A stretch of 64,000 nucleotides of DNA from a candidate division SR1 bacterium Aalborg_AAW-1 (GCA_001007975.1 CP011268.1:372001-436000); one strand, 5' to 3'. Counted from the first letter of the stretch, positions 1 through 2,777 are shown. The notes: generated from the letters alone by a model not told the origin. Translations and numbers: made by a program.

Positions 1-72
1 TAATGTTGTTTTACCAACTCAGAGAAATCATGAGAGGACGGTAACGGGGATTAGAGGTGATGATATAGTCAT
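1..72 (-). CDS. CobW/COG0523 family GTPase, 5' end only (runs off the window)
   Basis: Only the first 24 codons lie in the window. Reading from the ATG at 72 with TGA as Gly gives an N-terminus ending PVTVLSGFLGVGKTTL, the Walker A strand and P-loop of the CobW/Zng1 G3E GTPases. Members of that family act as GTP-dependent metal chaperones, often for zinc or cobalt, and are frequently Zur-regulated. Two of the P-loop glycines are TGA codons. It follows the PLP-rhodanese gene on the same strand after a 27-bp gap, so it is probably the third gene of an operon starting at 2247. The metal cannot be told from this fragment, and the GCxCC motif expected later in the protein is outside the window. 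Confidence 0.8.
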
Positions 73-99
73 ATTATCCAAGAAAATAAATAAAATATA

Positions 100-1386
100 T
101 TACTTATGAATGCATATTTGGTTCTTACATACAGGATATCAACTATTGTATCGATGTATTATTCAAGATTCTAATGATTGAGCGTTATATCATAATGATT
201 TGACATACTTCGCAACAATATCAGATTTAGAACCATATGAACATACAAAGACATACTTATATTCTTTCGATAGCGATGTCTCTACAAACTCATCCACATA
301 ATGAAATGGAATTGAAGATGCTGCATCAATATGATATTCATTGAATTGGTCTTGAGGTCTAAGATCTATAATCCAAAGATTATCAAGATATTGCATATCA
401 TCAATCAATTGTTGCACTGTATATCACTCTGAATTCGTTGTATCTAGGACAACTTCATAATCATAAAGATATGGTAATGCAGTATCAGGACAGGCAAATA
501 CAAGATGAACACCTCTATTATGTGCTAACTGAGATTGAGCATATTCTAAGGTTGCATAATAATTCATACCAGAACTTGGACCTCATAAAATCCCATATTG
601 ACACAACTTTGTGCTATATTGATAGGCATCATGTGTTCATACTTTAATAATCTGATCAGTCCATTTTTTCCAATCAAATCAAATATGTGAAAGTAATCAT
701 TCTGTTCTTGGTCAAGGTATAGGATTATTTTCTTTTCTTACTACACCTATTGTGTATATATCAGGATTTTGTTTTTTTAAATACTGAGAAATACCTAATA
801 AGGTACCTGTAGTTCAAAGGCTTGTAATAATTCCATCTATTTCTGGTAACTGATTAAAAATCTGAGGTCAAGTAATATCATAATGACTCTTCCAATTTAT
901 ATCATTATCGTATTGTCAAAGGTTATGTCGTCAATCTTTTTTTCATAACGATTTTGCAATATTGATACTACTCTCTGGATCATTAGGATTAGGACAAATA
1001 GGCTCATTATTATATTTTATATTCAATCACATGAGAGATAATAACTTTCTCTTCCCCTCAGTAACCTCTGTAGAGACAATAGCAGTCGTATCACAATTAT
1101 TGTAAACTTTACCATACACACTTACAGAATAGGCAGTATTTCATGAAGAGCTTTCTACAAAATGATTAATATCAGAACTATTTGACAGAGCATCTTGTAC
1201 CATATATCGAGCGGGTAATGATTTTATATTCAATAACGGATTCATATAAAGAAGTTTTGCATAGATATGTATTCAATTATTATAATAGGGATTCAACGAC
1301 TCTGGTAATTCAACCAAAGGAGTAATGTAATTATGGGGATCATGAAATTGTTGTAATGCATCTCTACCTCTATATATATTTTTCAT
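100..1386 (-). CDS. Cysteine-synthase-like PLP enzyme fused to a C-terminal rhodanese domain
   Basis: 428 aa read through many TGA-Gly codons. Residues about 20-320 have the fold-type II PLP layout: NPLLNIKSLPAR with candidate Schiff-base Lys55 (family form NPTGSFKDR), ESSSGNTAYSV as the substrate-binding loop, SLGTTGTLLGISQYL as the phosphate-binding loop, and GGPSSGMNYYATLEYA near the end. From about residue 325 a rhodanese domain begins (LWIIDLRPQDQFNEYHID) with a likely active-site Cys in FVCSYGSKS. The C-terminus adds VCKNQIC, a possible metal-binding pair. The family makes or degrades cysteine-type amino acids; rhodaneses carry persulfide sulfur. The substrate is unknown. It lies between a MinD-like ATPase and a CobW GTPase, 27 bp from each, which suggests one transcript. 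Confidence 0.8.
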
Positions 1387-1413
1387 CAAATAAAAAACTC
1401 ATCAAAATAAACA

Positions 1414-2247
1414 TTAATTGTTTTTCAAACTCTCCAATTTCATCACTCTTTCCACCAGACTAAATCACTGATAATTTTTTACCTCTTCATAGATATGAGC
1501 AATGCTATCTTTGACCGTAGGAGAAACCTTATCATAATCATACGCAAATAATCCATCATCAAATCCTATACTGCCAATGACCTTATCACCAAATTCTTCA
1601 TAGATCTGATGAATGTATTCGTTCTCTTGATACTTATTTACTACAAATCAGAAGTTAACATCAGACATCTCGCATAAGTTTTTGATCTGACGAGCGACCT
1701 TAATACTATTTCTACTGGGTTCTACAACCGTGATAAGATAATCACAAGCATGATAGAGTCCAAAGTTGATCATATCGACACCAGCTACTCCATCGACCAC
1801 GACATCTCGATTTCATTCATCTAAGAGTGTCAACCATACTTTGAGTGGATTACTCATACCGTGCGAACAGCGCCCACCAGTTATCACATCTTCAGAACCT
1901 AGTCAGACAATACCTATTTGAAGATTTTTGCTATGATCAACTAATACTCTTTTACTAAACTCATCCCTATCATCCAAAAAAAACTTACAATGACCGAGAT
2001 GTTTTTTGATCACTTCTCTAGCTTTGGATAGTTCAGATTCTTCCAAATACACGAACAAATCATCATATAATCATTTAAATGTCGGAGTCTCTGATGTAAA
2101 ATCATATCACAATAAGTCAGTAAAATCCATATTATGATCACTATCAATCGCACATACCGTATGATTCTCATGCAAGAGATATTGAGTTAATAATCGACTG
2201 ATACTACTCTTACCACTACCTCACTTTCAGACAACTGCTATTTTCAT
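1414..2247 (-). CDS. MinD/CooC-like deviant Walker A ATPase
   Basis: 277 aa starting MKIAVVGKGGSGKSSISRLL, a deviant Walker A motif (KGGxGKS) whose glycines are partly TGA. The switch region AIDSDHNMDFTDLLGYD and the later VVVDGVAGVDMINFG match the SIMIBI class that includes MinD, ParA, NifH-like and CooC proteins. CooC loads nickel into CO dehydrogenase; relatives insert other metals or move cargo. A single Cys in GGRCSHGMSNPL sits about where CooC has its metal-binding cysteines, so a metal role is possible but unproven. It is the first gene of the minus-strand group and starts 40 bp from a 15-bp palindrome shared with the divergent Fur-family gene. A cell-division role is less likely, as there is no MinC/MinE and no C-terminal amphipathic helix is evident. 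Confidence 0.75.
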
Positions 2248-2286
2248 GATATAGGTTTGAAATAAAGTTCAATCAATATACACAAA

Positions 2287-2301
2287 TGCAATAATATTGC
2301 A
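2287..2301. promoter_or_regulatory. Fur-family operator candidate 1
   Basis: A perfect 7-1-7 inverted repeat, TGCAATAATATTGCA, in the 125-bp gap between the divergent MinD-like gene (start 2247) and the Fur-family gene (start 2373). A 15-bp 7-1-7 palindrome is the usual form of Fur-superfamily boxes. Binding by the neighbouring regulator is inferred. Confidence 0.65.
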
Positions 2302-2309
2302 ATAGTAAA

Positions 2310-2324
2310 TGCAAAATAGTTGCA
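2310..2324. promoter_or_regulatory. Fur-family operator candidate 2
   Basis: TGCAAAATAGTTGCA is a second copy of the first palindrome with imperfect inner arms. It begins 23 bp after the first, about two helical turns, which would allow cooperative binding on one DNA face. It lies 49 bp before the Fur-family start codon and so probably overlaps its promoter. Confidence 0.55.
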
Positions 2325-2372
2325 ATTACAAAAAAAATAAATAATATGTAGCTATTTATATCCCTCTATCAC

Positions 2373-2777
2373 ATGTTTCAAGAACACGCACTAAATATTC
2401 TCAAACAACATAATCAAAAAATCACTAAAACTCGTCTTCGAATTTTAAATCAACTTGCTGAGATCAAACAACCTCTCAATCCCTATGAACTCATCAAACA
2501 ATCTACAGATTCAACGATTGATATTACCACTATCTATAGAAATCTCGAACTGTTTGAAAAAATAGGTCTTGTACATAAGGTACAAAGTCTGTGATGATAT
2601 CTTCCTTGCACACATGAACATAAAGAATGTAGCAAATCACATGATATTATTATATGTACAAGCTGTAACACCATCAATGAAACACATATCGATAGTAGAA
2701 CAAAAACACTACTCTGACTCAGTCAGTGACCTGTAGAGTTGAACGGACGTTGTAACTCCTGTGAACAAAAAAACTAG
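2373..2777 (+). CDS. Fur-family metal-responsive repressor (Zur/PerR-like)
   Basis: 134 aa, the usual size. Residues 1-80 are the winged helix (QKITKTRLRILNQL ... TIDITTIYRNLELFEKIGLV), with the TIYRNLELF recognition helix typical of Fur proteins. Next come the His/Cys-rich sensor segment CTHEHKECSKSHDIIICTSC and a C-terminal CNSC, giving the two CxxC pairs of the structural zinc site. It is divergent from the MinD-like ATPase, PLP-rhodanese and CobW GTPase genes, and two palindromes between them suggest that it represses both directions. The CobW partner favours zinc sensing, but the metal cannot be fixed from sequence. Two adjacent Gly codons are one TGA and one GGT-like run read through. 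Confidence 0.88.

Follow-up and report, generated by a model that had tools for sequence, protein, structure and literature searches.

We find that a Fur-family regulator and the operon divergent from it, which encodes a CooC-like ATPase, a PLP-rhodanese fusion protein and a COG0523 GTPase in the candidate division SR1 bacterium Aalborg_AAW-1, almost certainly form a conserved, Fur-controlled module; the four-gene set is not a local accident. We read it as a metal-scarcity module, most likely for zinc, repressed by a Zur-like protein, in which a ligand would be made and the metal would be moved by the CooC-like and ZigA-like NTPases, and we give this reading, taken whole, an even chance of being right. 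Its parts differ in strength: the support for regulation and linkage is good, zinc is the probable metal, and the product we infer from the kinship of the enzyme that would make it.

A metal-scarcity operon under a Fur-family regulator is a known arrangement; it is the enzyme pair that is unusual. We found no description of this module in the literature that we could search, and none of the papers there dealt with metallophores or with Zur in Patescibacteria. These bacteria have genomes of about 1 Mb and depend on hosts, and their acquisition of trace metals is hardly known.

Organization of the locus

The window, by which we mean the whole stretch of 64,000 nucleotides analyzed, covers 372001-436000 of a single-contig genome of 1.04 Mb (G000:C1); 12 kb of the genome to its left were also read. 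Its relevant features are as follows, in window positions unless contig positions are given.

G000:C1:370439-370903, left of the window: His-rich 4-TM membrane protein, 154 aa, end of the operon
To G000:C1:370927, left of the window, minus strand: remainder of the COG0523 GTPase (full length 381 aa; cobW 178 bits, CobW_C 62 bits for the whole protein)
1-72, minus strand: first 24 codons of the COG0523/CobW GTPase
100-1386, minus strand: PLP-rhodanese fusion, 428 aa (Pfam PALP 133 bits, Rhodanese 32 bits)
1414-2247, minus strand: CooC-like deviant-Walker-A ATPase (MinD/CooC-like), 277 aa (Pfam CbiA 37.5 bits)
2287-2301, no strand: operator 1, TGCAATAATATTGCA, perfect 7-1-7 palindrome
2310-2324, no strand: operator 2, TGCAAAATAGTTGCA, imperfect repeat with TGCAA/TTGCA arms
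2373-2777, plus strand: Fur-family metalloregulator, 134 aa (Pfam FUR 49.4 bits)

The first-pass annotation had described three minus-strand genes 27 bp apart and divergent from fur, and the coordinates, the Pfam domains and the gaps (27 bp between ATPase and PLP-rhodanese, 27 bp between PLP-rhodanese and GTPase) all bear this out. Beyond the window the GTPase gene is followed, after 23 bp, by that of the His-rich membrane protein, behind which lies a DUF167 gene. The other neighbor of fur is rpoC, with an inverted repeat and a T run between them (2773-2797, found by eye). Genetic code 25, in which TGA encodes glycine, is required: under it all four genes are open at the positions claimed earlier, whereas table 11 interrupts the genes of the locus. 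Code 25 is correct because TGA falls on invariant glycines, for example, in the PLP enzyme, G82 (SSGNT), G191 (GTTGT) and G225 (PGPR).

Conservation of the module

The PLP-rhodanese fusion is carried by nine of 288 genomes of the class, and in all nine a CooC-like gene is adjacent or a few genes away. Further fusion loci were found in a set of 380 genomes of the phylum; gene sets include ZIP, Fur, CooC and PLP-rhodanese (G311), Fur, CooC and PLP-rhodanese (G419), and Fur, CooC, a decarboxylase and PLP-rhodanese (G601). Two sub-types can be told apart: sub-type A is the AMA-synthase-like fusion of the window (see below), and sub-type B is a CysK-like protein with a rhodanese domain, which is accompanied by an Orn/DAP-decarboxylase-type gene, in many cases by a class-V aminotransferase/desulfurase-type gene as well, and at times by a methyltransferase. 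An alignment of nine proteins from both sub-types contained no conserved stretch, and a sub-type A alignment was used to scan GTDB contigs. The scan added Liptonbacteria, Saccharibacteria (including TM7 oral taxon 348), Woesebacteria and Dojkabacteria, as well as a Marsarchaeota bin, Firmicutes, Myxococcota and Obscuribacterales; contamination of metagenome-assembled genomes could misplace single taxa, but not the overall pattern.

Removal of repeats left 39 fusion loci, of which 38 have an intact neighborhood. A CooC-like gene lies beside 34 of these 38 untruncated loci, in many phyla, and a Fur gene lies within about 5 kb of 21 of the 39; for comparison, the 1.04 Mb of the window's genome contain a single Fur gene, the one described here. 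The Dojkabacteria locus L189 has CobW, Fur, CooC and PLP-rhodanese in a single operon, and Fur-CooC-PLP-ZIP occurs in L138 and in Saccharibacteria (L208). Repeated linkage with CobW and Fur and a shared palindrome had been named at the outset as the expected signs of a real module, and both were found when related genomes were checked. The COG0523 gene is present in just four to five module loci, which counts against the metal-scarcity reading as a whole.

That a cysteine synthase, a ParA/MinD protein and a GTPase are neighbors by chance is scarcely credible. All of these families are common and the set is missing from many relatives, but it recurs across phyla with a shared operator, and the linkage counts already refute coincidence.

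Copies of the operon broken by frameshifts or stops occur at L033 (G134), L061 (G140) and L141 (G290), indicating that some lineages are losing the module. A plasmid collection yielded weak matches, the best at 27-39% identity, mostly annotated as cysteine synthase or unannotated.

Regulator and operators

The regulator has two CxxC cysteine pairs (C95/C98 and C127/C130) of the structural-zinc type. Its best NCBIfam match is Zur (PRK11639), at 46 bits against a cut-off of 167, so that the protein may be called Zur-like at best; that it is derived and far under the cut-off counts against zinc. Of the two 15-bp palindromes reported in the 125 bp between fur and the operon, the first, TGCAATAATATTGCA, is indeed a perfect 7-1-7 palindrome and the only site in the 1.04-Mb genome that matches TGCAATANTATTGCA with no or one mismatch, but the second, TGCAAAATAGTTGCA, is imperfect, with five of seven pairs matching and the TGCAA...TTGCA arms retained. 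Operator 1 overlaps a promoter-like -35 element (TTGCAA) of the minus-strand operon, by a promoter scan that is weak in that shuffles yield as many matches. TGCAA-N5-TTGCA, with at most one mismatch, stands at 17 of 38 operon fronts, a set that includes a few close relatives (300 shuffles: mean 0.73, maximum 5). Taken locus by locus, the palindromes are mostly not significant against shuffles; only the shared core is. Judging from the position and conservation of these sites, the metal-loaded Fur-family protein would bind both TGCAA-N5-TTGCA operators and keep the operon off when metal is plentiful, and the operon would be expressed when metal is scarce.

Zinc is probably that metal: a ZIP transporter gene adjoins Fur in three loci (L138, L057 and L208), the COG0523 GTPase is nearest to ZigA, and L201 and L199 have a Zur-like box. 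At L201 the sequence TGAAAATGATTTTCA is exactly the Zur consensus footprinted in Streptomyces coelicolor (PMC2823685), and L199 has the same sequence with one change; the exact consensus occurs in L201 only, and a 7-1-7 box recurs among the relatives. COG0523 is a core member of Zur regulons (PMC2823685, PMC2770081), and PMC2770081 makes no mention of a rhodanese or a cysteine synthase. Counting against zinc, ZIP is absent from the window's genome, and sequence alone cannot separate zinc from iron or manganese. The first-pass annotation had left two readings side by side, zinc starvation and the supply of persulfide sulfur with a metal; the ZIP genes, the ZigA-like GTPase and the L201 box favor the former, and the latter is the weaker of the two, given the AMA-synthase kinship described below.

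The GTPase and the His-rich membrane protein

The GTPase gene, of which the window holds only the start, had been taken for CobW, and it proves a true COG0523 member to its end, with the cobW domain, the CxCC motif (GCICC) and the CobW_C domain in its 381 aa. Its nearest NCBIfam model is ZigA (455 bits, below the cut-off of 600). It shares GCICC, CobW_C and linkage to a Fur-family regulator with the ZigA/YciC-type zinc GTPases, but differs from them in its score under the ZigA cut-off and in its new partner genes. A ZigA-like protein of this kind would hand the metal to client proteins. The 154-aa membrane protein has a His/Cys-rich tail and belongs to no Pfam family; homologues occur in seven of 144 other genomes of the class, among which linkage to CooC was not found. 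It may aid movement of the metal across the membrane.

We also observed a solo protein of about 92 aa with a zinc ribbon and a helix-turn-helix (InsA-like/HTH_Tnp_1), mostly single-copy, which takes the regulator's place at three CooC/CobW loci and in two other cases adjoins a homologue of the His-rich membrane protein.

L034:7935-8210, minus strand: zinc-ribbon/HTH protein
L036:11695-11964, minus strand: zinc-ribbon/HTH protein
L039:7598-7867, plus strand: zinc-ribbon/HTH protein
L238:1180-1473, plus strand: zinc-ribbon/HTH protein
L239:1123-1401, minus strand: zinc-ribbon/HTH protein

Of 40 genomes of the family, 17 have one copy of it and one has two; the window's genome, which has Fur, has none. 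It is possibly a domesticated transposase-type metal regulator.

The PLP-rhodanese enzyme

The enzyme had been described as cysteine-synthase-like with a rhodanese domain, a label that comparison shows to be too simple: by sequence and predicted fold it is AMA-synthase-like (aspergillomarasmine A synthase) and not a plain cysteine synthase. Its best PDB sequence match is 8H4H/8H4Q (E = 2e-61), followed by SbnA (1e-21), with CysK and CBS weaker. An AlphaFold2 model (pLDDT 84.9, pTM 0.72) searched with Foldseek retrieves 8H4H (E = 4e-36; next unrelated entry 3e-22), an entry titled 'apo structure of Aspergillomarasmine A synthetase', which is about 28-30% identical to the window's enzyme over the structural alignment. 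A relative with a longer linker, at L138, aligns to 8H4H across both domains (E = 7e-87), and its rhodanese cysteine aligns too. A maximum-likelihood tree of 78 PLP domains places AMA synthase inside the clade formed by the window's protein and its relatives, which is split 100/100 from sub-type B, CysM and SbnA; some branches are long, and just where in the clade AMA synthase belongs is uncertain. AMA synthase (8H4H, 8H4Q) and Fda4 of Fusarium poae share PLP fold-type II and a C-terminal rhodanese domain with the bacterial enzyme, in which the PLP lysine and the rhodanese cysteine are kept, as Lys55 and Cys382 of the window's protein; the cysteine is invariant in nine of nine aligned fusions of sub-types A and B. 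Unlike the fungal synthase, the bacterial enzyme is encoded in an operon with metal NTPases, under a Fur-type operator. The window's copy is divergent (33-42% identity to its relatives), which we count against our main reading. Two narrower identities were rejected: CysK/CysM, at 124 bits against a cut-off of 344 (cysKM) and 101 against 351 (cysK), and SbnA, at 105 bits against 350 and with no dehydrogenase (SbnB) partner in the operon.

Aspergillomarasmine A disarms metallo-beta-lactamases by removing zinc. The kinship with its synthase points to the synthesis of a metal ligand and not to persulfide supply to a metal center, and the case for a ligand rests on the nesting of the enzyme with AMA synthase in tree and fold together with the chelation of zinc by AMA (PMC8319579). 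AMA synthase joins O-phosphoserine and L-Asp, and the related PLP-rhodanese Fda4 uses L-Ala (PMC12751119); the condensation by AMA synthase yields toxin A and AMA, a zinc-binding aminopolycarboxylate. By analogy, the substrates of the bacterial enzyme would be an amino acid and a serine in activated form, which for the fungal enzyme is O-phosphoserine, and their condensation would yield a zinc-binding product; we lean slightly toward an aminopolycarboxylate. SerC has no match in the window's genome, which counts against our main reading: O-phosphoserine would need to be supplied by a host, unless the enzyme uses another substrate. ZIP is absent too, and the module has no linked gene for an exporter or a receptor, so that secretion of the ligand as a metallophore would be conjectural.

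A different reading is sulfur delivery: cysteine or a persulfide would be cleaved by the PLP domain, the rhodanese cysteine would accept the sulfane sulfur, and the CooC-like ATPase would add a metal, so that a metal-sulfur center is built in an unknown protein or small molecule. We think it unlikely, though it has several points in its favor: the invariant rhodanese cysteine, the class-V aminotransferase/desulfurase gene that adjoins many sub-type B loci, the lack of SerC, and the fusion of a rhodanese to two separate CysK-like lineages, both with CooC, which implies that the domain matters. Against it, the nearest characterized enzyme also bears a rhodanese and yet condenses O-phosphoserine with Asp, sub-type A, the window's own, has no desulfurase, and the module has no conserved gene for an apo-target.

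Ligand synthesis also has precedents. SbnA of staphyloferrin B is CysK-like and makes an aminocarboxylate metal ligand, although it is not orthologous to the PLP-rhodanese protein; nicotianamine synthase clusters make such ligands by a SAM-based route; and the EDDS cluster of Amycolatopsis is another aminocarboxylate metal-ligand cluster. These are in part under metal-sensing repressors, as is proposed here. The operon has no NIS synthetase or SbnB, and to our knowledge a CooC-like ATPase is new to aminocarboxylate-ligand clusters.

The CooC-like ATPase

The best PDB match of the ATPase model (pLDDT 88.2) in Foldseek is CooC1 (3kje, E = 4.7e-11), followed by MinD and ATPase-type HypB, and the family profile matches CooC1 at E = 2.5e-37. 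With CooC, the ATPase that inserts nickel into CO dehydrogenase (3KJE), and with ATPase-type HypB the family shares its fold, the deviant Walker A motif GKGGxGK, the D-x-x-AG-x-D region and the position of the metal site. CooC binds metal through a CxC motif. The family instead has an invariant C-x-H, found in 41 of the 41 relatives that span the site (a few being one contig counted twice), with C-Y-H falling on the C-Y-C of CooC1 and C127-S-H129 in the window's protein; this comparison relies on the profile alignment to CooC1. Most family members have a C-terminal extension, which the window's copy lacks. A dimer of the ATPase would bind metal at C-x-H and use ATP to load or release it.

The folds of CooC1 and HypB, among the closest retrieved, might suggest that the CooC-like ATPase and the COG0523 GTPase mature a nickel or cobalt enzyme with a ligand made by the PLP enzyme. 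This we regard as very improbable, since no nickel or cobalt enzyme gene occurs in the module at any locus read and C-x-H replaces the CooC CxC. The absence of CODH and hydrogenase from the module is a further difference from CooC and HypB.

Related pairings and the proposed role

In 17 loci of Alpha- and Gammaproteobacteria, AMA-synthase-like enzymes without a rhodanese domain have ArsD, ArsA or both as neighbors, and at several of these loci ArsR is present too.

L161-L183, L193, L202: rhodanese-less Ars-linked loci, with an FmdE-like gene between in L183

These enzymes are about 50% identical to the Patescibacterial sub-type A, the ArsA and ArsD proteins tested exceed their NCBIfam cut-offs, and the CooC/Fur set is absent beside them at the loci read. 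The loci suggest an undescribed arsenic-linked PLP enzyme, and the ArsR-ArsD-ArsA neighbors suggest an enzyme family without a fixed link to zinc, a point against our main reading. They also raise the idea that arsenic, or a soft metalloid like it, is detoxified either by the PLP product or by the PLP enzyme with arsenite as its nucleophile, with the CooC-like ATPase in place of ArsA. For the module itself we hold this improbable: the rhodanese-bearing loci read never have ArsR, ArsD or ArsA, and have Fur, ZIP and COG0523 instead.

Two Gracilibacteria loci, L058 (G149) and L059 (G152), combine a nicotianamine-synthase-like gene (Pfam NAS 124 and 136 bits) with two CooC-like ATPases, here of a sister type, and a CobW-type GTPase. 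Nicotianamine synthase may give these two genomes another way of making an aminocarboxylate metal ligand. The AMA-synthase-like clade itself is paired twice with SIMIBI-class metal ATPases, the CooC-like protein and ArsA. The pairings with ArsA and with nicotianamine synthase favor, over cysteine synthesis, an arrangement in which the enzyme makes a metal or metalloid ligand and the ATPase handles the metal.

We tentatively propose, as a possibility that is less likely than not, a new metal-supply system widespread in Patescibacteria, in which a pathway under a repressor makes an AMA-like aminopolycarboxylate, this zinc ligand and ATP hydrolysis by a dedicated C-x-H CooC-type ATPase jointly feed zinc to client proteins, and the rhodanese domain is an essential sulfur- or redox-linked part. 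If this is true, a zinc ligand is produced in some Patescibacteria by an enzyme related to fungal AMA synthase, AMA-synthase-type enzymes can be obtained from bacteria, and the C-x-H motif marks a large, unnamed family of CooC-like ATPases with a role in metal handling. The module makes the role of the rhodanese domain in the AMA-synthase class a testable question of enzymology, and, recurring as it does in Patescibacteria that are only distantly related and in several further phyla, it looks like an undescribed metal-scarcity strategy of tiny genomes.

In Obscuribacterales (L191 and L194), a protein of about 900 aa with an AMA-synthase-like part lies beside a decarboxylase-type gene, and L191 also has an SDR, a Cys/Met-type PLP gene and an oxidoreductase; these two loci look like a larger natural-product cluster.
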